Notes under the pieces: model-generated | Told to the model about the DNA's origin: nothing | Database searches by the model: none | What the model saw: only the letters and a program-made list of their open reading frames with translations | Part shown: positions 19,847 to 33,707 of the stretch, piece after piece | Numbering within the stretch: the stretch's first letter is position 1 | How the letters are laid out: every line of letters starts with the position of its first letter | Position numbers and translations under genes: made by a program | Assembly: GCF_000234665.1 (NCBI RefSeq) | Contig: NC_018319.1 | Span: forward strand, 310,001 to 374,000 | Direction of reading: 5' to 3' | Length of the DNA stretch: 64,000 nucleotides | From: Leishmania mexicana MHOM/GT/2001/U1103 | Lineage: Eukaryota > Euglenozoa > Kinetoplastea > Trypanosomatida > Trypanosomatidae

Positions 19847-21523
19847 CTACTGCCTCAGGGTGTACAGGAAGCTGTAGTACTGCATCGACAGGTAGTGGGT
19901 GACGTAGAAAGAAATGCACGTGCCGAGGAGGGGGACGCGGTTGACGAAGCCGCGGATGAAGTGATGGTAGACGAGCTGCTTCAGCACCGCCGTAAAGAAG
20001 GGGTCGCGCATGACGTTGTAGACGGCATTGCGCAGTGCCTGCTGTACCCGGATGTGATCACGCGAGACGACTCGGGGCTCCATAGTTGCCCCGATGGCGC
20101 GGGAGTCGACCGCACCGGTTACGGCTGTCGTGCTGGCGGTGAAGCCGCCTACCGCGTCAGCGCCGCTTCCCTGTGTCGACGCTGCCTCACCGCCCTCCAG
20201 CAAGGCCACCGGCATGCCGCCGTCGTCGCTCTCGGCGCTGTCCTTGATGTACACCACGGGCACGCGGTGGTGGCGCACGAGGCGGGCGAGCAGAGCGACA
20301 AGGAAGTCGCACCCCGTCACGCCAGTCCACACGCTCCAGCTGCCTAGCAATGTCTGCTGCGGTGCGGCGGCCATTGCCTTGTGGAGCGCCGCGAGTGGGT
20401 CAGGCCCCGGCGTCGGCTTCACCGGCGTCCCGGTCTTTGTCTCTTCCGCAGCCTTGGCGGCCGCCGCCATCTCCTCCTTCGACACAGGCGGTGGCAACAC
20501 CGCTATTGAGTTGGTGGTCTCCTCTGGCCGCGCCAGGAATGCGTGCCGCGCCATCGCTACGAGGAGGAGAGGGCGCAGGAGCAGGTACATGTCCAGGATC
20601 ATGCCAAGCACGTCGACCCACGTGAAGCCGATCACCTCCGCCTCCTCCGATTCCTCGTCCACGTCCCCGTCCTGCGCGAAGGTGACGTGCTCCTCTCCAT
20701 CGTCGGCGGCGCAGTTGGCACCCGGCCTGTAAATGTGGCGGTGCACGTGGCGCCGGTCGGAGGTGACCCGCGGGATGACGAGGCGCGTGTTGTGCGGTCC
20801 CACGACCTCGCCGCACAGGCCGGTGCTGCCGCCATTATACTCCACCTGGGTGAGAGGGCCGGCGTAGTTTCCGGCAGCGCCAGCACCGGCGGCCCACGCG
20901 GCAAAGCTGCCAGCACCGCTGCCGCCAGAGCCGGAGGACACACCACCGTTGCCGCCGCCGCGCACACGACGGCGCGGCGTGAGGGTGGTCAGGTGGCGAA
21001 GGGCACGGCGCAGCGACAGCTTCATTGACTCCCATAGGCATGGCACGCGGAAGAGCTGACGGTGCACGCACGCCTTCAGCGTGCACTTGACTGCCTCTAG
21101 CAGGAGCAGCGCATTCCACGTGCGACGGTGGCCGGCGTACTTGCGATGGATCAGCTCCATCAGGCACTCCACCTCTTGGATGCCTCGCAGCACGAGGGAC
21201 AGCAGCTCTGTTTTGGTCGTCCGGCGACCGCCCGAGGAGACGATGGCGAAGTTGGAGAAGCTGTGCAGTTTGCACAGTGTAAAGCATGCTTCCGAGGTGA
21301 TCAGGCTCGTCGGGTCAGACCACAGCATGGTGAGGGTACGCGTGAACTGCTCCAAGCTTGAGGCGCCCTCCGGATTCGCACGCACCCACTTGCAGTACCA
21401 GCGAACCGGATCAAGCAGCTTGCCCAGCGGCAGCCTTTCACCACCGCCGCGCCGGTGCTCCGCCGGAGAAAGTGACGAGGGCGTCGTCGTCATCGTGGTC
21501 AGCTCGCGAGACATCGATCCCAT
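19847..21523 (-). CDS. Peroxin 16 (PEX16), peroxisomal/glycosomal membrane biogenesis
   Basis: A 558-residue protein. The open frame begins with TTG at 21547; the first ATG is at 21523 and a second at 21514. The N-terminal part matches the PEX16 start (one helix ending in RANPEG, then a LEQFTRTL helix). There is a VVGPHNTRLVI stretch equivalent to the VGKRSNRVV region, then a hydrophobic segment at about 300-325 (VDVLGMILDMYLLLRPLLL) and a C-terminal block with YNVMRDPFF and a final aromatic tail (YSFLYTLRQ), as in human PEX16. In other eukaryotes PEX16 helps insert peroxisomal membrane proteins via the ER; here the target would be glycosomes. The protein is much longer than the 336-residue human one because of Gly/Ser- and Ala-rich insertions (around 190-230 and 350-480). 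Confidence 0.87.
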   Translation of the reverse strand: MGSMSRELTTMTTTPSSLSPAEHRRGGGERLPLGKLLDPVRWYCKWVRANPEGASSLEQFTRTLTMLWSDPTSLITSEACFTLCKLHSFSNFAIVSSGGRRTTKTELLSLVLRGIQEVECLMELIHRKYAGHRRTWNALLLLEAVKCTLKACVHRQLFRVPCLWESMKLSLRRALRHLTTLTPRRRVRGGGNGGVSSGSGGSGAGSFAAWAAGAGAAGNYAGPLTQVEYNGGSTGLCGEVVGPHNTRLVIPRVTSDRRHVHRHIYRPGANCAADDGEEHVTFAQDGDVDEESEEAEVIGFTWVDVLGMILDMYLLLRPLLLVAMARHAFLARPEETTNSIAVLPPPVSKEEMAAAAKAAEETKTGTPVKPTPGPDPLAALHKAMAAAPQQTLLGSWSVWTGVTGCDFLVALLARLVRHHRVPVVYIKDSAESDDGGMPVALLEGGEAASTQGSGADAVGGFTASTTAVTGAVDSRAIGATMEPRVVSRDHIRVQQALRNAVYNVMRDPFFTAVLKQLVYHHFIRGFVNRVPLLGTCISFYVTHYLSMQYYSFLYTLRQ

Positions 21524-22417
21524 ACACAAGCAAGCTGCGGGAGGCAAAGAGAGAGAGGCGGCGCGGGAGGTGGGCGCTTGGGATGGAGAAGCGACGGAGA
21601 CGACAGCAACACCGGGAACGCCCGGCTAATAGCGCTGCCCTCGAATCCGCTGATGGGCGCTGGCGTTTTCGAGTGTTGCACGATTCGCGTGCTCTCAGTG
21701 GACGTCCGCGGAAACTTGGCGCCGCTTCTCTCGCGTTCTCTTCCCTCTCCCTTCGTCGACAAGGATGATGCCGATTCGCAAGCGAATGTGTGTGCTCGTG
21801 TGGGTGAGCGTGCGTGCGTGTGTGTGTGTGTGGGGGGGGTGAGGTGGGGTGGCCGCGGGTAAGCTTCTTGGTGAGGCGTAAAGGGCATGCAGAAAGCGAG
21901 CAAGCGGGTGAGGAGAGGGGTGGTGGTGGTGGTGGTGGCGATGCCGAGGAAGGACGGTGGCGGCTGCGGGTTTGGGGAGGGGAGGAGATGGTAGAGGTGG
22001 TGGTGGTGGGGTGGGGGTGAGGAAGACAGCACGACCCCCCCACCGCGCGTCCCCAAGCGTATTTCTGCACAGCGCCAACACGAGCGAGAAAAACACGTGA
22101 TGCAGCACACCTTGTTGTCATGCTTACCTTCTCGAGAGCGACGCCGTGTGCCACGCCATCACGCCATGATCGGCCCCTCCTCCCCCTTTCCCTCGACATT
22201 TCGCTGCCGTACTTTGTGCGTGGGCAGCGGCTCACTGTACTCAGCGCAGCGCAGGCGACGGGCACACGCAGGCATTCAAAGAAAAGCGGTGAACACCGAC
22301 AGATGCGGCCCGATATCTGTTCTCGTAGACGGAGGGTGGGTGGGGGAGGGAGGCCTGTCTTCCCCCTCTTTCGGTCTGAAGCAAAACGCAAGCAACACCG
22401 CCTACCTCAGCCGCGCT
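21524..22417. other. Intergenic region
   Basis: No gene seen. Dominated by GGT/GGA-rich plus-strand sequence (21905-22020), a pyrimidine-rich tract on the transcribed strand that probably directs splicing of PEX16 and polyadenylation of the DPM2 mRNA. A (GT)n run lies near 21812-21834. Confidence 0.65.
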
Positions 22418-22750
22418 TCACTTGGCCGCCATGGTGACCTCTGGCGCCACTCTACCTGTGGTCGTGTCGGATGCTAATAGGGTTGCCCCGGTCCCCATCG
22501 ACGTTCTTGACGGGGGCACGTAGCCAGTCCGCCAGATGGTGTGAAGAGACCCGACGAACATGCCGACCCCGACAGCGGTTGTCATGACGAGCGCCGCGAG
22601 CAGCAGACCGTACTCGCGGGGGAGAAAGAGTGCTTGCGTGAAGTGCGACTCGTCCACGAACGGCATTACACCGATCCAAAGAACGTAGTAGATAAAGAAG
22701 CTCGAGTTGCACGCCAGCAACAGCGTGCCCAAGGCGCGATCCGTCATCAT
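22418..22750 (-). CDS. DPM2-like subunit, dolichol-phosphate mannose synthase / GPI-GnT regulator
   Basis: A 110-residue membrane protein with two adjacent ATGs at 22750 and 22747. Two membrane helices (about 8-30 and 47-70) flank the family core: FFIYYVLWIGVMPFVDESH followed by LPREYGLLLAA, matching human DPM2 (tyrosine pair, PF[IV]D, LPRxYA). In animals DPM2 anchors and stabilises DPM1 in the ER and also associates with the first enzyme of GPI synthesis. The 35-residue C-terminal extension is polar and longer than in human DPM2 (84 residues). It lies between PEX16 and the REP fusion. Confidence 0.87.
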   Translation of the reverse strand: MMTDRALGTLLLACNSSFFIYYVLWIGVMPFVDESHFTQALFLPREYGLLLAALVMTTAVGVGMFVGSLHTIWRTGYVPPSRTSMGTGATLLASDTTTGRVAPEVTMAAK

Positions 22751-23449: not shown

Positions 23450-26400
23450 CTACCGCGGGAGCGGCTTGAGGAAGGCGTACGCCTGCGCTGCTTCCTCATC
23501 GCCCTCCGCTACCGCTGCGGACGTCCCCGTGACGGCTGTCGGCAGGCCAAGGGCATCGAGCACGCGCTTGTACGCCCTCTCAGCCTCCTGCACATAATGC
23601 CCATCGTACACAAGGTTCGGCAGCAGTGTCGGCACCTCGACAAGGTGAAAGTTCTCAGAACTGCGGCAGAGGTCAGCCGCCCGTGCCGCAGCCGAGCACA
23701 CCGGCGTGGGCTTGACAGCCGATGGCGTAGCATCTTCTCCCGTCCTCCCGTGGTGCAGGAGATGTTCGCGGTCGCTCTGGTTGGCGCGCCGCAGCTTCAT
23801 GGACTCCTCCCAACCGTACGGATGAGTCCAGCGCGTTTCGCTCGGCAGCTCCACCGGGTGTGGCACCACGCCGCGCTGAGCCACCTCGCGGTTGTCCACC
23901 GTGAAGGCAGCCGCCAGAACGACGTCGTCGTAGGGGACGCAGTACGGCTTTTCCGCCTTCGCGGTGGATATGTAGTAGTGCATGACGTACGCACGCAGCT
24001 GCTCCTGCGAGATCTGCTTTGCGTCGGCCGTGAAGTGCACTACACACGGATCACACGCGGCATCACCGTCGGGGTCGCTTTCGGTGAAGCGCGCCGGTGC
24101 CTGGTCGGACGCAAACGACTGCTGCACGACCCACACCACCGCCCGCGTCTGTGGCTCCCTCGCGAGGGCCGTGATGATCGGCGCAGCGGCCGTGTAGTCG
24201 CGCGCGTCATCTACCTCGATTACGCCGGCGCCCTGCATGGTGGCTAGCGAGAAGAGCGAAGCGGTCTTCGTCGCCAGCACGACTCGGCTGAAGCGGACCA
24301 CCGCTGCAGGAGATGCCGACGCAGTCACAGGCTCGTCAGCCGCGCCCTTGTCGCTCGTCTTCGTCTGCTCCGCCGGGGGTGGGATGAGAGGCGTCCGGCC
24401 CTGCTCCTGCTCCTTGAGGAAGTCGTAGTACCAGTCGTTCACCCCGTAGCTCAGATAGTTCGCTGCGGCGAGTTCCGCTGGCGTGACGATGACCTTGGCG
24501 GGCACCCACTGCCCGTTGCTCAGTACGGCGTACTGGGTCCCTTTGCCTTCGTCCACGGCGACGCCGCGGAGACTGCGGCGTAGCACAAAGATGCCGCCCC
24601 AGACGGCGGAGATGCGGCACATGTTCTGCGCCACCTCGGAGGCTCCGTACGACATGGTGAGGTACGGAGACTTGCCATCGAAGGCACCGGTGGAGAGAAG
24701 AAGATCGCGCACCATGTCCACCGACCGAACAAGAGGCGGCTCCTTCGCAGCCCCCTGGCTGCCGGCCACGCTTGCGCTGCTCGTCGCGGGCAGCACATCC
24801 ATCATGCCCATGAGCGAGACGACGTCGAGGACGGTGCCGGAGAGATCGTACTTTCTCTGCAAGAGCTCCGTCAAGGTGACCTGCGGATTCGCGTGCGCCT
24901 CGCGGGTGAAGATGGCCGCTGCCTTGCCCACAGCCGCCTCGGCGGCCACGGACGTGTTCGCGACGGACGGGTCGTCAGCCGGGTTCGCGGCCTTGGCGTG
25001 CAGCTGCTCCGCCACGCACGCCTCGACATCTTTCACGAAACGCATCATGCGACGCTTGTCAAAGAGCCCGATGGTGGTGTTGTGGAAGACGCCTGCCCGC
25101 GTCAGCGGAACCTCCATCGCAGTCGTCGTCGCCTCCGAGCCAGCACCGGTTGCTGTTGTCGGGTGTTGCAGGAAGAGGAAGCGGTGCACGTGCTGGCACT
25201 CCAGCGATCGGCCTATGCCAGAGAAGACGAGGCGGCTCAGCAGCGGACCACGCGCCATGTAGCACATCGGGAGCACGTCGAACAGGTAGCGGCGGCGGCG
25301 TGCCTCTGGCACATCGTCGACGATGCGGTTGATGAAGATGTTTGACGCGCCGGACGAAGACATCGAGGATGGCGACGGCTGGCGCAAGTACTGGAGAAGC
25401 GCGGTGTGGTCGAAAGTGGCCATGGCGGCAGCATAGTAATCCGCACCATCGCAGTGCAGCACCTTCAGCCCGTTTCGCGACAACGCTGCCGACAGGATCG
25501 ACTGCACCATCCCCGTCCCCTGCAGCACCACGTCAAAACAAAGGCTTGCGTCCAACCCGCAGCCGGCGGCGTCGTAGCGACGGGTGATCTTGTAGCACTT
25601 CACCGGCTGCCGCACTGACTCCGGCCCGCGATCCTCCGGGAACATCATGGGGTAGTCCTGCTCGTCCAGTTGCTCATACTGCAGCCCGCGGCGCACACAC
25701 TTGTCGAAGAACTCGAAGTCGTGCAGCTGCTTGTACGCGCGGTGGTGGGAGAAGACACAGTAGCCGGCCGCGTGTGTATTCTTGGCCAGGAGCGTGGCGA
25801 GCGTGTCGGCGAGGTCATCGTTGCAGACGTGGTTGAAGATAATGTCGGACAGGAGGACGATGTCGTAGCCGGCGCTGCCAGTCGTGTACTGCATCACTTT
25901 ACCAATGTCTTCCTTCTTGCCCCAGAGAAGGGGCTCCACGCAGCAGCGGGTTCTCATGGCTGCTTCCAGCTGATCAGCCGAGAAGCGGTCGAGGCCGCCA
26001 CCGTTGGCGAGCTGCTGCCGGGCTTGCTGCTCCATTTCGCCCTTCACGTCAGCATCTATGTCTCCAGGGGCGCAGTTTGTCTCCAAGTTCAGCGCGAGGA
26101 TGTCGAGTAGATGCGTGTCAGGGTAGTCCGTCATGACGCACAACCGCGCGCCGTTCTTGTACGCTGCCAGTGCCGGAACGCCGAGCCCGGCACCAAGCTC
26201 GATGACAGACTTTCCACGCACGTCGATCATACGCTCATCCATGCGCTTTACGAGATACTTGGCCGCGTTCCAGAGCTTGTGCCCCCACAGGCTGTGTCGT
26301 TTGTCACGGAAGCGGACCACCAGCGGCGGCGGCGCGAGGCGCGCGAGGCGCTGACGTAGCAGCGCCTCATCTTCCTCCGCCGTCGCCGCAGAGGTTATGC

Positions 26401-26551
26401 TGTCAAAACGGTCAAGGAGAGGTTTGAAGTAGTCGCACGTCGTCCCTTCCTCGGCGAGTGCCTGGCGGTTGATGAAGAGCGTCTGCAGCGGGTATTCCGG
26501 TGCCTCTTCGACACCGCCGAACAAGTCATCAAAGCCTTCTCCGTCCGACAT
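23450..26551 (-). CDS. Methyltransferase-Rab escort protein (REP/GDI family) fusion
   Basis: One uninterrupted frame of 1,033 residues from an ATG at 26551. Residues about 60-325 form a family-16 methyltransferase: SLWGHKLWNAAKYL (87-100), SAM motif I VIELGAGLGVPAL (116-128), TDYPD (141-145), and LLSDIIFNH in the motif IV position, closest in pattern to EFM7/Nnt1 and METTL21-type protein lysine or N-terminal methyltransferases. After a short link, residues about 338-1033 form a REP/GDI protein: dinucleotide-fold start FDVVLQGTGMVQSILSAALS (339-358), then GLKVLHCDGADYY, a LPMCYMARGPLLSRLVFSG stretch and SPYLTMSYGASEV. REP presents new Rab proteins to geranylgeranyl transferase II. The REP part (about 695 residues) has normal REP length. 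Each half is recognised firmly; whether the protein acts as one molecule is untested. Confidence 0.9.
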   Translation of the reverse strand: MSDGEGFDDLFGGVEEAPEYPLQTLFINRQALAEEGTTCDYFKPLLDRFDSITSAATAEEDEALLRQRLARLAPPPLVVRFRDKRHSLWGHKLWNAAKYLVKRMDERMIDVRGKSVIELGAGLGVPALAAYKNGARLCVMTDYPDTHLLDILALNLETNCAPGDIDADVKGEMEQQARQQLANGGGLDRFSADQLEAAMRTRCCVEPLLWGKKEDIGKVMQYTTGSAGYDIVLLSDIIFNHVCNDDLADTLATLLAKNTHAAGYCVFSHHRAYKQLHDFEFFDKCVRRGLQYEQLDEQDYPMMFPEDRGPESVRQPVKCYKITRRYDAAGCGLDASLCFDVVLQGTGMVQSILSAALSRNGLKVLHCDGADYYAAAMATFDHTALLQYLRQPSPSSMSSSGASNIFINRIVDDVPEARRRRYLFDVLPMCYMARGPLLSRLVFSGIGRSLECQHVHRFLFLQHPTTATGAGSEATTTAMEVPLTRAGVFHNTTIGLFDKRRMMRFVKDVEACVAEQLHAKAANPADDPSVANTSVAAEAAVGKAAAIFTREAHANPQVTLTELLQRKYDLSGTVLDVVSLMGMMDVLPATSSASVAGSQGAAKEPPLVRSVDMVRDLLLSTGAFDGKSPYLTMSYGASEVAQNMCRISAVWGGIFVLRRSLRGVAVDEGKGTQYAVLSNGQWVPAKVIVTPAELAAANYLSYGVNDWYYDFLKEQEQGRTPLIPPPAEQTKTSDKGAADEPVTASASPAAVVRFSRVVLATKTASLFSLATMQGAGVIEVDDARDYTAAAPIITALAREPQTRAVVWVVQQSFASDQAPARFTESDPDGDAACDPCVVHFTADAKQISQEQLRAYVMHYYISTAKAEKPYCVPYDDVVLAAAFTVDNREVAQRGVVPHPVELPSETRWTHPYGWEESMKLRRANQSDREHLLHHGRTGEDATPSAVKPTPVCSAAARAADLCRSSENFHLVEVPTLLPNLVYDGHYVQEAERAYKRVLDALGLPTAVTGTSAAVAEGDEEAAQAYAFLKPLPR

Positions 26552-27246
26552 GAGTGGGTGAGGTGAGGGGGTGATCGGTGCGCAGCGGCAGTGAGCGGTT
26601 TATGGACTCCTGCGTGACCTGAATGGGGTTGTTTGGTGGTGGTGAACAAGCAGAGGTGAAAGAATGGTGTCTGTGACTGGATGCTGCGAGGCGGGTGTGG
26701 CCGAGCGGCGTCGCCGAGGGGGGGGAGGGAGGGAGGAAGGGTGACTGTGGGCTAGGCGCTGCTGACGCCACACACACACATGCACACACAGAGGTTCCTT
26801 CGAGGAGCGGTAGATGGTGAGGACGAGGCGGCGGGGAAGGGAGAGGGATGAGTGATGATGAAGCGCACGCAAGGAATGCGAGGGGGTTGAGGGTGCGTCA
26901 GGGTGCAGGTGCAGATGGTGGTGCCCTTTCGCAGGGGCGTCCCTGGCGACCGTCCGTGCGAGCAAAAGAAAAGCGCAGGTGAGCCGTCGACCGCGAGGGG
27001 AAGGGGGTGTGGGTGCGCGTGCCCACCCTCCCCCCGCGCGTGCCTGTGCTGTGCGATTAACCGACCGTGGCATCTTCAGTGCGCGCGGGCGAGCTTGCTT
27101 GGGATGTTGATGCGTTTTCATCTTCCGAGAACGGTGGCAGAGGGCCGAGCCTAGGAGCGGATGATGCACGTGTGCTCCTCCTCCCTTCCCTCCTCGCGTG
27201 AGAAACGCGAGGAGGCGACAGCAGCGACGGCGGTGGGGGCGTGGGG
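26552..27246. other. Intergenic region
   Basis: No gene seen. A pyrimidine tract on the transcribed strand at 26746-26715 is followed by AG at 26685-26684, a candidate acceptor about 130 bases before the fusion gene's ATG. The rest is G- or CA-rich simple sequence. Confidence 0.6.
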
Positions 27247-28524
27247 CTACAGCGTGGCCGGGAGCACACGCAGCAGTGGCAGTCCACCCAGCTGTGTACA
27301 AGCGCGTGCCAGCGGATGGGACTGCACCGTCTCTCTGAAGAGCGAGGGTTTGGTCTCGCTCAGGTAGCGAAGGCGGTCGTCATGGCGGTTAAGCAGCGAG
27401 CGTGCATGTTGCAGCAGACGCAGGCGATGCGCGTCCATCTCTGGCTCCTTTCCCACATTCAGAGAGAGCTCGTGCGCATCCGACAGGTCGCCGACCACGA
27501 CACGCGACTTTCTGGGATAGGTGGGGGCAGCAGCGGCGGTACGCGCAGCCGGGGCAGGCGCTGGCAGCGGCCCGTTGAGCGACACCGACTGTGCAGAGCG
27601 ACCCCACGGCTGCGGCTGCGGCGGGGAGCAGAGAGGGCAGCGGGTCTCGTGCGCAACGGAAACGCGATCGAGAACGGCCTCGAACACCCGAAGAGCCTCT
27701 GCGTGCGCTGCAGTGGGCGAGGTAACAGCAACAGCAGCAGCCACGGAGGAAGCAGACCGCGTCAGGTGGCACTCACGCACCATGGCGTGCTTTGTGTCCA
27801 CCTCAGAGGCAACGGCGGCTGTGGTGGGGTACCACGCAGCGGCGCCGATCGACTCGGCCCGTGACGTTGCCGAAGAGCAGGAGCACGACAAGCTCAGCCC
27901 GTGACCTTGCGCATTCACTTCCTCGCCGTAGTCATAACCATCGTCCACCTCGACAACGCTACAGCCGTCGACCAGAGACATCGAGGGGGATGGGGGATAG
28001 CGAACAGACGGGGACAAGGCGCATTGGGGACACCCCGAGAGAAACGCGCTCTCAATGGCCCTTTCGGACAGGGACGCACGCCGCGGCACCGCGGCCACCT
28101 CCTCGCGCGTGGCGGTCGCCTCACGTGTCCGTTTGAAGTTGCGGTAAATTGCCATGAAGGACCACCTGCCGGACAGGTGGCCGCCAGCATCCGCAGAGCT
28201 TGCATGGCGTTGCTCTTCCAGGGAAGCAGCCGTCGTTGCTGTCGTGCCCGATGCAGCGCCGAGTGCACACGAGGAGGAGGATTCGCGCGTGGCACCGGCC
28301 GAAGGGCTCGAAAACGGGAGGAGGTGCCCTGGCAGCAGGGTGTAACGCGCGCGCTCCTGCACGAACGCATCGGACCACAGTGAGGCTGGTAAGAGTAACT
28401 CCAGTGACCGGAAGCCGGGGTGCTGATAGCGCGTCACCTCGCTCGACGCGGTAAGGTACTTGAATGGCGCGGGGGGCGGATGGGCAGCCGGCTGTGATGC
28501 TGCTGGAGATGCTCTCCGCATCAT
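27247..28524 (-). CDS. Hypothetical protein, unrecognised
   Basis: A 425-residue protein. The open frame reaches 28614, but the natural start is the ATG pair at 28524/28521; the upstream part is a CA/TCC-repeat translation. Residues 20-60 and the last 65 residues look ordered, the middle is Ser/Ala-rich and disordered, with two SG-containing poly-acidic patches and Cys pairs (CPLC near 325, CPQC near 175). The C-terminal helices (LRLLQHARSLLNR, then RLRYLSETKPSLFRETV) have a faint resemblance to a PUB-type helical fold, too weak to name. No membrane segment or signal peptide. Confidence 0.65.
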   Translation of the reverse strand: MMRRASPAASQPAAHPPPAPFKYLTASSEVTRYQHPGFRSLELLLPASLWSDAFVQERARYTLLPGHLLPFSSPSAGATRESSSSCALGAASGTTATTAASLEEQRHASSADAGGHLSGRWSFMAIYRNFKRTREATATREEVAAVPRRASLSERAIESAFLSGCPQCALSPSVRYPPSPSMSLVDGCSVVEVDDGYDYGEEVNAQGHGLSLSCSCSSATSRAESIGAAAWYPTTAAVASEVDTKHAMVRECHLTRSASSVAAAVAVTSPTAAHAEALRVFEAVLDRVSVAHETRCPLCSPPQPQPWGRSAQSVSLNGPLPAPAPAARTAAAAPTYPRKSRVVVGDLSDAHELSLNVGKEPEMDAHRLRLLQHARSLLNRHDDRLRYLSETKPSLFRETVQSHPLARACTQLGGLPLLRVLPATL

Positions 28525-29493
28525 AGGATGGGCCTCGCGCGCGGGAGAGCCCGGGGATGTATACCTGCGATCAGCGGTGAGGAGGAGGAGGAGGTGTGTG
28601 TGTGTGTGGTGCACGCTTTTTTCTCCCCTCCTCTCCTATGCAAAACAAAGTTCTATTTGCAATGCGTGTGTGTGTATCTCCCTAACGCTCGATGAAGCCG
28701 CTTGCTCTTGCTGTCACTGTGATCGACCTACTCAGTCAAGGACGACACACACACACACACACGGCAGCTGAGTAGCGTCGCATGGGGGCGGCGGCGGCGG
28801 TGACGATGACAATGCCAGCGCGGAAAACGGCGGCCGCGCTGCGTGTTTGGCGCCGTTGACGTCGCCACCGCGTGAGTAAGCAGGGGACAGGGGAGTGGTC
28901 TGTGAACGTGTGCGTACGCCTTCGTGGCCAACCAACGAGCAGAAAGCCGTGGCGGCGCCCGGGTGTGGGGAGCGGGGCCGAGGACGTGCGGGCTTACGAG
29001 TCGGAGAGTTGCCGCAGGTCAATCATTGAGGGGGGGAGGGAGAAGTGCAGTAAGGAGAGTCGCGGCAGGCAGACAGGTGTGCTCGCTGGGCGTCAGTGGC
29101 TGCGCTCCTTTTGCCTTTCTGTTTCGGTGCGTGCATGCGGTAAGGACGGTGGAGCCATCTGCAGCCAAAGACATGTCACACGTACCCACAATGTCCTCTG
29201 GCATGCCGGTGAAGAGCTGTGCACCGGTGTGCAAGCCAGAGTGCCTGGAGGGCGTACCGCAGCAGAGCGGAGAGGGGAAGGAGGGTGGGGGTGGGGAAGT
29301 GTCACGGACTCTGCACAGCCGAATGCGCGTGCTCTCACCACCGAGGGGTGGGGACTTCCTCCCGCCTCGCATCAGGAGCATCCTCCCCAGCGACGCCTCA
29401 CGCTCACAGGTATGCGCGTGCACCATCACAGACGAGAGGCGCAGAGCGCGATGAGTCGCCGATCCCCCCCTCCCCCCATACACACACACAGCT
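28525..29493. other. Intergenic region
   Basis: About 1 kb with no supported gene. CA repeats lie at 28746-28762 and 29488-29492. G-rich plus-strand runs near 29028-29045 and 29266-29300 are pyrimidine tracts on the transcribed strand. Confidence 0.65.
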
Positions 29494-31944
29494 TCACGCA
29501 TAGTTCAAGATGGCCTTGAACTTTTTTTCCCATGCCCTCATCCTCGCCAACGGTGTGCCGACGACGGCCGCATCAACGGCCGAGGAGGCATGATGTTTCG
29601 ATGGTGCGCGCCAGGGGGTGAAGTGGGCCTGCTCCAGTGCATCGCCGTCGACAGGCACGCCAGCCTTGCCCCTCGCCGCACTGCTCCTGTCGTCGTAGGG
29701 TCGCTGCGCCAGCGCGTTCACCTCGGCATCACCACTGCCCTCTAGCGCCGCAAGCACCGACGGCTGTACAACGTCCATGGGAGAACTGGGAAAGGCCGAC
29801 GGAAGCCGCAGCGCTCCAGACGCCGTCGTGCTGGCGCTACTTGTCGGCTGCGCACCGTGGGTCCGTGCGGTGTCGTCTGTGCGTGCTCCGGGTGGATGCT
29901 TTATTGCCTTATCCATATTCGGCGAAGGCGAGTAGCTCAGTGATCGACTGGGGCTGCGATACACCGATGACGGGCCAGCGAACCCGCTGAGCCGGTCGAT
30001 GGCCGCCAGTCGATCCATCTGTGCGTCAGCCCACGTGACGCGCGGCGCAGGTGAGGAGGTGTCGACTGGCGGCACCCCCAACGCGGACACCGCCGCCGCC
30101 GCTGCTGCTGCTTTCGCTTCCGCTCCACCGCTTGGCGCCACCGACAACACGGCCTTGTCGACGCCCTCCCGCAGCTGTCCCGCCCGCTCTGCTGCGGTTG
30201 CGTTGCGGGCTTGCTGAAGGAGCTCAAGCCGGCTCTTCAGCAGAGCGCATTCCCGTGCATAGGTGTCGCGCTCGTCTTTCAGCGCGCAGAGCCGCGTCTG
30301 CCAGTGCACCTCTCGTTGAGCGCACAACATGGACTGATGTTCCGCTGCGCTGGCACGACGGGTTGCCGCGACAACGTCGCATTCTAGGGTCGCTCGCGTG
30401 CGCTCCAGATCTGCACGGTAATCTTGCTGCGCTCGCTCCGCCGCGGCACGCGCTTCAATCTTGAGTTGCAAGACGTTGTCCTGCTGCGCCTGCGCAAGAT
30501 CCCGAATGTCGCGCATCGCGGCGTCCAAGGACGACTGCACAGTGACACGACGTTGCTGCTCTTGAAAAAGAGAGGTGCGGGCCTGTCGGAGCTGCTCTTC
30601 CAGGTCTGTGCTGCGGTGCTCATCTTGTGGTGGCGGCTGCCGCTGCGGATGCCGCGCATAGGCAGCAGAGGAGGTTGATGCGAGTCCGCTACTGGCGAAG
30701 ACCATGTCGTCCACACAAGTGCGAAGCACTGTGTCGAGGTGCTCGAGCGCACTTTGCAGCACCAGCAGCGAGTGAGCCAGTGACGATGACGTCGGCGCAC
30801 TGTTCGCTTGCCGTCGACTTGACACGTCCAGGAGGGCCTGAACCACACGCGCTGTCTCCGGTTCTTCGGCATCACCGTCGTTAGCCGTGTGGGCATTGTG
30901 GGAGCAGTTTCCGCACAGCACCGCACGACACTCGCGCAGCTCGCTGCTGCGCGACAAGCAGCGAAGCACGGCACGGCAGAGATCGCGGAGGTGCGCCTGG
31001 AGGGTTGTGTGCGACTTTTCATTGTACGTGGCACAGGTTTCTGCGGCATTTGCAGCACTGCGGCTACGGTCCGACTGTTCCTGTTCCCGTTGCAGCCCAG
31101 CGGGGGACTCTGGCAGTGACGCGTTGTTCCCTGCCCAGTGAGAGAGAAAACGACGCGGGTAGGCCACCTTGTTCGTGTCCGAGCCTCTCGGGATGCCGTC
31201 AGTGCCTTCGCTCTCACCGCCGCAGTGGTGGCCGCTACCGCCGGGGGTGGACAAGTTCGGAGTTGTAGAGGCAGAGCCCATCGATGCCCTGCCACTCCTC
31301 GACTGTTGTTCCTGTCCCTCCGCCTGCTGCACGGCTCTCTTCCGAGGATTCACCTGTGCTTGAAGGCGGCGCAGCTTGTCCAGCAGCTTTCGCATGAGCG
31401 TCTCCGACGAGACTTGCGCGGCGGCAAACTCCGCTTCCCACCGCGCCTGGAGCGCGCGCTCGCGCCGCAGCGCCCGTTTCTCCACCTGTAGCGCCCGCTG
31501 CCTCCAATATTGCAGCTGCTCTTCCAGCTCGAGAACGTGGTAGTGTTCCAGCACCGCGGAACCGCCCGTGGTGACTGCCTGGTGGCGTTCTTGGTCATTG
31601 CTGCAGTGGCGGGCACCGAGCGCAGGTGCCGCACGCCGATGAATGAGGGGCACTGCAGCACCATTGCTTCCGTGTTCGCTAGACTGAAGTTGTTGTGCGC
31701 CCAAGTGGGCAGAGTCGGTGTGCGGGGAGTGGCTGCTGGAGCGTGAGGAGTCGGGGGTGGAGGACTGGCGAGGATGTTGCACGTGCCTCCTACAAGGATG
31801 CGCGAGATGACCTGCTGCCTCGCCTTTTCCTTCACAGAAAACCGGCGGCGGTCGAAGGGGCCTGCAGCTTGCGAGTCCGTTCGCGTCATCGGCTGGCGAT
31901 GCCGCGCTAGCGGAGCTAGAGGTTGCAGAGGCCGTTTTCGACAT
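29494..31944 (-). CDS. Coiled-coil protein, unrecognised
   Basis: An 816-residue protein with the ATG at 31944. The open frame extends to 32544, but that part is a translated pyrimidine and CA-repeat leader, with a pyrimidine tract at about 32060-31985 and AGs at 31985-31970 just before the ATG. Residues about 125-200 and 420-590 form coiled coils (LELEEQLQYWRQRALQVEKR; then repeated Gln/Arg/Glu/Ala heptads). A Ser/Pro-rich linker separates them and the tail is Ser-rich, ending in a basic/aromatic helix (RMRAWEKKFKAILNYA). A CGNCxxNxH motif near residue 348 holds the only cysteine and histidine pair of note. No known family; a structural or cytoskeletal role is inference. Confidence 0.78.
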   Translation of the reverse strand: MSKTASATSSSASAASPADDANGLASCRPLRPPPVFCEGKGEAAGHLAHPCRRHVQHPRQSSTPDSSRSSSHSPHTDSAHLGAQQLQSSEHGSNGAAVPLIHRRAAPALGARHCSNDQERHQAVTTGGSAVLEHYHVLELEEQLQYWRQRALQVEKRALRRERALQARWEAEFAAAQVSSETLMRKLLDKLRRLQAQVNPRKRAVQQAEGQEQQSRSGRASMGSASTTPNLSTPGGSGHHCGGESEGTDGIPRGSDTNKVAYPRRFLSHWAGNNASLPESPAGLQREQEQSDRSRSAANAAETCATYNEKSHTTLQAHLRDLCRAVLRCLSRSSELRECRAVLCGNCSHNAHTANDGDAEEPETARVVQALLDVSSRRQANSAPTSSSLAHSLLVLQSALEHLDTVLRTCVDDMVFASSGLASTSSAAYARHPQRQPPPQDEHRSTDLEEQLRQARTSLFQEQQRRVTVQSSLDAAMRDIRDLAQAQQDNVLQLKIEARAAAERAQQDYRADLERTRATLECDVVAATRRASAAEHQSMLCAQREVHWQTRLCALKDERDTYARECALLKSRLELLQQARNATAAERAGQLREGVDKAVLSVAPSGGAEAKAAAAAAAVSALGVPPVDTSSPAPRVTWADAQMDRLAAIDRLSGFAGPSSVYRSPSRSLSYSPSPNMDKAIKHPPGARTDDTARTHGAQPTSSASTTASGALRLPSAFPSSPMDVVQPSVLAALEGSGDAEVNALAQRPYDDRSSAARGKAGVPVDGDALEQAHFTPWRAPSKHHASSAVDAAVVGTPLARMRAWEKKFKAILNYA

Positions 31945-32477
31945 GCGAGTTGGTGCGTGCGTGTATGGTCTGCTCGCCCGCAAGGAGGAGGGAGAGTGAG
32001 GTTTGGGGAGGGTTCCTTGGGACGAGGGAGTGGGGAGAGGGGGTGGGAGGGGCGCACGACAGACGGGGCGAGGCAGACGAGGATGAGAAGCGATGGTCGT
32101 CCGCTGTGAGTTATGGAGGGTGAGGCAGAGCGCACACGCACGCACGCACACAGACACACAGGGGGAGGGGGATAGAGAGCGGGCGAGATGAGCGGCTGCG
32201 CGCTGCGTGCGTGCATGCAGCCACCCGCATATCGGCGTCCTTCGCTTTTGTTGGAGGGCGACATGCGCGCAGGGGTAGACATCGGGACAGAGATGTGCCG
32301 GCCCAACGTCTGCTTCCCTGCACAGTGGCAAATAAACAGGGGAAACGTGTGCGCAAGGGCTGCGATGTGCGTGGGTTCGTTGTAATGGCCGTGATGGGTA
32401 GAGGAGGAGGGATAGGTGATGACGCCTGCAGAGTAGGACCCACACACACACCACACAGATGCACGCGCACGCGCGGG
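31945..32477. other. Intergenic region
   Basis: No gene seen. The part nearest 31970-32060 is the coiled-coil gene's pyrimidine tract and acceptor; the rest is the nucleotide-sugar transporter's 3' flank with CA-repeat patches. Confidence 0.65.
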
Positions 32478-33707
32478 TCATTTTGTGGCGCAGCGGCATG
32501 AGATGGTGCGGGCATCCCCCCAGCCGCGCGTGTAGTACATGCACATGGCGGTCATCACGATCCAGACGGCGATTGCGTCATGACTGGTGAAGGGCTCGCC
32601 GAGTAGTGCGGCGGCGACGGCTGCGGTAAGCAGCACTTCGAGAGCAGACGCGAACGCCTTGGCGATGACGTTGAGAAACTTCAGGATGAACGCCGCAGAG
32701 ATCCCCATGACAGTGCCGAATATGATGAGGAGGACTACGAGCGGCGCGCCGCTGCGCTGCTGCGGCGGTGCAGCATTCCCGTTCAGTTCGCCGACGGCCG
32801 CAGTGCTGGTCCTCGTCGTTGTCGTTGTCGCGGCAAAGACGCCCGTGATGATGGCCGGGTCGGCGAGGAGGCCAAAGACGGTGTTGAAGAGGATGACGTA
32901 CAAGTGCGTGAAGAAATTTTGCTGGTGGATGGAGAGATGCCGCTCCTTCTTGAGCGCGTACTCGTTATACACACCTGCCATCGATGACAGGAGCGCCTGA
33001 GGCAGAATGAGGAGTACGCGGGGGCCAAGCTGCAGCGTACTGGGGGAGTAATACTTGCTCGCCACACCGATCATCAGAAGCACGAGAGCAACCCACTTGC
33101 GCACTGTGAGGGCCTGGTGCGGCAGAAGGCTAAAGAGGATACCTGTGAACAGGATGCGGGTCTGCATGAACACCTGGTACGTGCCGGCGTCGAACAGCTT
33201 CAGATTGGAGAAGGTCATATTGTTGTACACCGTGTAAAGGAACGATGGAACAGTGTAGGGGAGGCCGCCGCGCCAGATCTCGCGTCGCTGCGCACTAAAG
33301 AGCACCTTAGTCGGCAGGAACTCGGCGTCCTCGCGGTACTTGAGGGCCACAGACACCGCCAACTTGGTCAGCTCGATCGCGAAGACGACGAGGGCGTCGT
33401 TATATTGTTGATGGTGGTTCTTCGTGTAGCGGATAGTAAGGACGAATAACATGCTCGCCAACATGTAGATCGCGGCGAGGGCGGCGCTCTGCAGGAAGGG
33501 CAACGTGCTGTCTGGAGGGGACAGGGGGCCAGCGCTTGCACCCTCCGTAGGCGAGAACAGCACCTCCCCTTCTCCAGGGATCTTGTGCACGCCACGGATG
33601 CTGCTGACCTTGATGACGGCGGTGCTGTTGCAGGTGCCCTCGACGCCCCAGATGGCGCCTCTGGTTTTCTCATCCTCGCTCTTCTTGCTGCAGGCGTAGG
33701 TGGACAT
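32478..33707 (-). CDS. Nucleotide-sugar transporter, SLC35 type
   Basis: A 409-residue polytopic membrane protein with the ATG at 33707. After about 65 polar residues there are roughly ten hydrophobic segments. Family signs are YNDALVVFAIELTKLAVS in the second helix region, PSFLYTVYNNMTF, GTYQVFMQTRILFTGI, and SSMAGVYNEYALKK in the middle, which is the conserved G-V-Y-E/N-x-x-LK element of the UDP-galactose / CMP-sialate / UDP-GlcNAc group (SLC35A). The final helices hold a KFLNVIAKAFASALEVLLTA run. It should carry a nucleotide sugar from cytosol into Golgi lumen in exchange for the nucleotide monophosphate, feeding phosphoglycan or glycoprotein synthesis. The particular sugar cannot be read from sequence. 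Confidence 0.88.
   Translation of the reverse strand: MSTYACSKKSEDEKTRGAIWGVEGTCNSTAVIKVSSIRGVHKIPGEGEVLFSPTEGASAGPLSPPDSTLPFLQSAALAAIYMLASMLFVLTIRYTKNHHQQYNDALVVFAIELTKLAVSVALKYREDAEFLPTKVLFSAQRREIWRGGLPYTVPSFLYTVYNNMTFSNLKLFDAGTYQVFMQTRILFTGILFSLLPHQALTVRKWVALVLLMIGVASKYYSPSTLQLGPRVLLILPQALLSSMAGVYNEYALKKERHLSIHQQNFFTHLYVILFNTVFGLLADPAIITGVFAATTTTTRTSTAAVGELNGNAAPPQQRSGAPLVVLLIIFGTVMGISAAFILKFLNVIAKAFASALEVLLTAAVAAALLGEPFTSHDAIAVWIVMTAMCMYYTRGWGDARTISCRCATK

Follow-up and report, generated by a model that had tools for sequence, protein, structure and literature searches.

A fusion of a predicted Family 16 methyltransferase and a predicted Rab escort protein encoded in Leishmania mexicana

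The closest described counterparts of the protein analyzed here come from two separate families. For Rab escort proteins (REPs), the reference systems are REP-1 and yeast Mrs6 (PDB 1ltx, 1vg0), and Phe279 and Arg290 of REP-1 have a role in docking to Rab geranylgeranyltransferase (RabGGTase) (PMC9141697). The GDI/REP superfamily also includes LdGDI, described as the single Leishmania Rab GDI (PMC5107955). Among methyltransferases, Family 16 is characterized by a [D/E]xx[Y/F] motif and two conserved Trp residues near S-adenosylmethionine (SAM), with an active-site Trp that is W222 in yeast Efm2; in the same source, yeast Efm7 is described as methylating the N terminus of eEF1A (PMC5324768). In humans, METTL13 does the same N-terminal job by means of a distantly related domain (PMC6109062). 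In L. mexicana we find a protein that differs from REP-1 and Mrs6 in that a methyltransferase stands in front, and that shares superfamily membership with LdGDI but is encoded by a gene separate from that of the GDI. What is new in the fusion is how two known parts are combined.

One frame with two domains

The window is the whole stretch of 64,000 nucleotides that was analyzed, and it corresponds to positions 310001-374000 of contig C15 in the 32-Mb, 545-contig assembly that we searched. The open reading frame starts with ATG, ends with TAG and encodes a protein of 112.96 kDa (Table 1), and the remaining two frames of the minus strand have 29 and 24 stops over the same interval. This one frame carries both Methyltransf_16 (PF10294), at 46 bits with a cut-off of 21, and GDI, at 73.7 bits with a cut-off of 23. 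An NCBIfam search gave nothing above cut-off. An earlier note on this DNA had claimed a single open frame joining the two halves, and the frame and its Pfam domains bear this out; the two strings that it quoted, VIELGAGLGVPAL and FDVVLQGTGMVQS, are both found in the frame. Its statement that no spacer lies between the domains was wrong, as there is a linker whose length among the 34 aligned rows described below is 17-19 residues in most and 26-74 in nine. Rows P0022, P0023, P0024, P0026 and P0029 have a longer linker of 36-51 residues. GC content at the three codon positions is alike on either side of the join and across it (methyltransferase, 0.66/0.40/0.79; residues 331-345, 0.67/0.40/0.73; REP, 0.66/0.48/0.81).

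Table 1. Positions of the fusion gene and its parts in the window
Feature	Position	Strand	Basis
Fused methyltransferase-Rab escort protein gene, 1033 aa + stop	23450..26551	-	ORF, Pfam, 33 homologues with same order
Upstream stretch with two pyrimidine-rich tracts, putative spliced-leader acceptor region	26713..26855	-	20-mer scan
Methyltransferase domain, Family 16 fold, residues 18-329	25565..26500	-	
Trp94, counterpart of Family 16 active-site Trp (W222 of yeast Efm2)	26270..26272	-	34/34 rows
Motif I (SAM binding), residues 116-124, V-I-E-L-G-A-G-L-G	26180..26206	-	E118, G120, G122 in 34/34 rows
[D/E]xx[Y/F] motif, D236-F239	25835..25846	-	34/34 rows
C-terminal block (FSHHR...D..FF...MF..D.G...R), residues 264-314, resembling Nnt1-like proteins and 3bzb	25610..25762	-	likeness by eye
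Interdomain linker, residues 323-339, 17 aa	25535..25585	-	17-74 aa among 34 rows
Rab escort protein half, residues 331-1032	23456..25561	-	
REP/GDI conserved region SCR1, residues 339-375	25427..25537	-	alignment
RabGGTase-docking helix, Phe489 (= rat REP-1 Phe279), Arg500 (= Arg290)	25052..25087	-	both 34/34 rows
REP/GDI conserved region SCR3B, residues 628-660	24572..24670	-	alignment

Protein searches, with about 8000 candidates scored in each, returned 24 and then 34 proteins. Since the protein's own entry sits in both lists, the second contains 33 homologues, and the domain order is the same in all of them. With a Leishmania donovani entry the protein shares 91% identity, and with L. major 89%. 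Named sources of the fusion include Leishmania species, Porcisia, Novymonas, Leptomonas and Lotmaria, together with Trypanosoma cruzi marinkellei, T. conorhini, T. rangeli, T. brucei equiperdum and T. congolense; a further protein search (16 matches) added a cut entry from T. vivax. Both Pfam labels are present in 33 of the 34 rows, and the exception, P0034, has the GDI label only, yet it aligns through both halves. Rows P0030-P0034 are the deep rows, and P0024, P0034, P0035 and P0036 are short or cut. We regard the fusion as real and old within the group, with constraint acting on both of its active parts.

Elsewhere in the window, on the same strand, are a gene for DPM2, the dolichol phosphate-mannose regulatory subunit (22418-22750; PF07297, 62.8 bits), and one for a Pex16-like peroxisomal membrane protein (19847-21547; PF08610, 71.5 bits). 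The latter frame as listed starts with TTG, so its true start is probably further in. Two long open frames of the minus strand, 29494-32544 (1016 aa) and 27247-28614 (455 aa), have no Pfam match at E 0.01.

The Rab escort protein half

The earlier claim of a full REP/GDI-type protein is upheld, specifically as a REP, by the conserved regions SCR1 and SCR3B and by the docking residues Phe489 and Arg500. Within SCR3B, conservation is partly relaxed in some rows, with Q642 present in 28/34, E639 in 31/34 and R646 in 33/34. Gln642 is lost in P0022, P0023 and P0026, rows that also have the longer linker. The half differs from REP-1 at the positions mapped by alignment to Met286, Met291 and Lys294, all of which are replaced, and in the stretch from Y373 to D425, which spans 43-89 residues among the 34 rows of the fusion. 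Both RabGGTase subunits are found in the same genome, the beta subunit on contig C33 (330 bits) and the alpha subunit on C32 (46 bits over a 166-aa piece). The C-terminal half of the fusion is the only REP candidate that we found in this genome.

The methyltransferase half

Assignment of the N-terminal half to Family 16, as the earlier note had proposed, is confirmed by the PF10294 match and by residues that are invariant in 34/34 rows, namely D142, W94, W210, D236/F239 and those of motif I. W94 and W210 were mapped onto W222 and W318 of Efm2 by context through METTL21 alignments, with Efm2 itself outside the alignment. In the distant rows, the methyltransferase half is more conserved than the REP half.

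Within the family, the nearest stand-alone relatives by search and by tree are of the Nnt1/Efm7 type, and they have a similar C-terminal FSHHR...MF..D.G block. Named stand-alone eukaryotic proteins among the 16 matches are a Carpediemonas 'Nicotinamide N-methyltransferase-like' protein, a Histomonas 'Nnt1p' and an Ogataea hypothetical protein. The tree was built from 12 of the 34 fusion rows and nine Nnt1-like stand-alone relatives, leaving out P0035, P0036, P0045 and P0047 (from the 16 matches) and the genome's own locus L010, read as PRMT-like. Support is 99/98 for the fusion clade, 81/83 for the Nnt1 group and 84/81 for both together, with long branches elsewhere and a midpoint root. The sequences place the methyltransferase half, with moderate support, in a probable grouping with the Nnt1/Efm7 type. 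The nine relatives differ in being stand-alone proteins of 233-334 aa, whereas here the domain forms the front of a 1033-aa REP; yeast Efm7 itself lay outside the comparison. The human Family 16 lysine methyltransferases METTL21A-D gave lower scores (profile; 19-31 bits for METTL21A, B and D versus 98 for 3bzb). In this genome, the only Nnt1-like gene found is the methyltransferase half of the fusion.

Alternative readings, substrates and the tie between the halves

We considered whether the annotation could be at fault, with a frame error having merged two genes or an internal splice acceptor separating them, and we judge this extremely improbable. Chance or sequencing error is excluded because the same join recurs in 33 homologues. 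The matches of the protein searches (about 8000 candidates scored in each) include no split orthologue, and no pyrimidine-rich 20-mer (90% or more) lies inside the ORF, which, as far as such tracts mark acceptors, argues against a splice acceptor between the domains. Pyrimidine-rich tracts are found upstream of the ORF instead, as two runs of 20-mers starting at 26732-26745 and 26844-26855. It is also very unlikely that the C-terminal half represents an additional GDI and not a REP. Such a reading could appeal to the common superfamily, to the Pfam label GDI, to the name 'RAB GDP dissociation inhibitor alpha' on some database entries and to Arg500, which GDIs share. A Rab GDI, however, should have Leu at the Phe279 place and GDI structures as its best match; the fusion has Phe in 34/34 rows, and REP-1 ranks above the GDIs for this half by sequence and by structure. 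Moreover, the genome's own canonical GDI lies at a separate locus, matches GDI at 489 bits and has Leu at the Phe279 place and Arg at the Arg290 place. About equally improbable is the view that the methyltransferase has become a non-catalytic binding module. Although its activity is a prediction, the SAM-binding and catalytic residues are invariant and this is the better conserved half.

What the methyltransferase acts on can be approached through its relatives. Because yeast Efm7 methylates it, the N terminus of eEF1A is the likeliest substrate. No eEF1A gene was recognized in the assembly, where a protein search for eEF1A yielded nothing closer than a 728-aa frame with a 48% match, and a search for the DNA pattern of the eEF1A N terminus gave nothing. 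Domain searches gave 32 (PF00009) and 3 matches, including a short fragment on C323, and the one fragment that was read, L028, looks like eEF2. Our guess is that a tandem array of eEF1A genes was collapsed or lost in the assembly. A review connects Efm4, another eEF1A methyltransferase, with yeast vesicle transport (PMC8807479), which by analogy may offer a hint, and no more, that bears on the fusion.

The reading that we prefer, at somewhat better than even confidence, is that of a bifunctional protein which serves as the organism's REP and as a methyltransferase of the Nnt1/Efm7 branch, acting most likely on the N-terminal glycine and next lysine of eEF1A; we infer both activities, the substrate and why the halves are tied. 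The C-terminal 700 residues would bind a newly synthesized Rab, dock to RabGGTase via Phe489 and Arg500, present the Rab for geranylgeranylation and then deliver it to the membrane. The 330 residues at the N terminus would constitute a SAM-dependent protein methyltransferase of Family 16. By being tied, a translation-linked enzyme and a Rab chaperone may have their amount or location set together. Since the length of the linker is variable, a fixed geometry of the halves is probably not required.

Two other accounts of the tie each appear to us unlikely, though not negligible. According to one, the methyltransferase would act on the clients of REP (a lysine or the N terminus of a Rab), on RabGGTase or on REP itself, coupling methylation directly to prenylation. 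The persistence of the two domains together in 33 homologues speaks for it, Rabs and eEF1A are both GTPases, and a lysine on the surface of a Rab, of REP or of RabGGTase is a possible target. Family 16 enzymes are, in addition, thought to recognize three-dimensional aspects of their substrates (PMC5324768). The free linker length and the grouping with Nnt1/Efm7 count against this account, as do the Rabs themselves. We read 24 Ras-family loci out of 39 matches, 13 of which have a C terminus of the double-Cys type; judged by eye, and with the start taken as the last Met before the match, one of these 13 starts Met-Gly and none starts Met-Gly-Lys/Arg, which lends no support to their N termini as Efm7-type targets. 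Among the 11 other loci, with the start taken in the same way, the Arf-like L053 starts Met-Gly-Lys. Thus, the proposal in the earlier note that the fusion couples protein methylation to prenylation by way of the Rab is unsupported. The same is true of its second candidate, the prenylated C terminus, since the genome has a separate gene for the prenylcysteine carboxyl methyltransferase ICMT, which also speaks against an ICMT-like role for the fusion. The other account holds that both activities are real but independent, the join being a historical accident that was simply kept. Differing evolutionary rates of the halves and the freedom in linker length are consistent with such an accident; against it stands the lack of a split version among the matches (about 8000 candidates scored per search).

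Full-text searches of openly available journal articles found no paper describing the fusion. The legend of a published REP tree lists T. brucei and T. cruzi, and in the searchable text of that paper the stem 'methyl' is confined to a single reference (PMC1994686); the word methyltransferase is absent from the main text of PMC4654808 and of PMC5107955. Among the database names of the homologues are 'conserved hypothetical protein', 'methyltransferase/GDP dissociation inhibitor', 'Rab geranylgeranyl transferase component A' and, in the case of P0012 and P0031, 'EEF1A N-terminal glycine/lysine methyltransferase'. The earlier view that no REP with such a domain has been described therefore stands for papers but not for database entries, which already name the fusion; it is on record but, within the searchable literature, not discussed.

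The anchoring of Rabs in membranes has REP as its only adaptor, and REP is needed for growth elsewhere. That Leishmania, T. cruzi and T. brucei relatives have a methyltransferase joined to REP, with an active site that is kept more strictly than REP itself, suggests that protein methylation is tied to Rab delivery there. As a speculative extension that we hold with low confidence, Rab prenylation in kinetoplastids would run through a bifunctional REP whose methyltransferase either marks a surface of Rab, REP or RabGGTase or couples Rab delivery to the methylation state of eEF1A, and SAM supply or translation would then gate membrane traffic. Two processes with no obvious connection seem to be served by a single protein, a two-part parasite protein unmatched by the solved mammalian REP-1, and this raises the question of what is methylated and whether Rab prenylation changes thereby.
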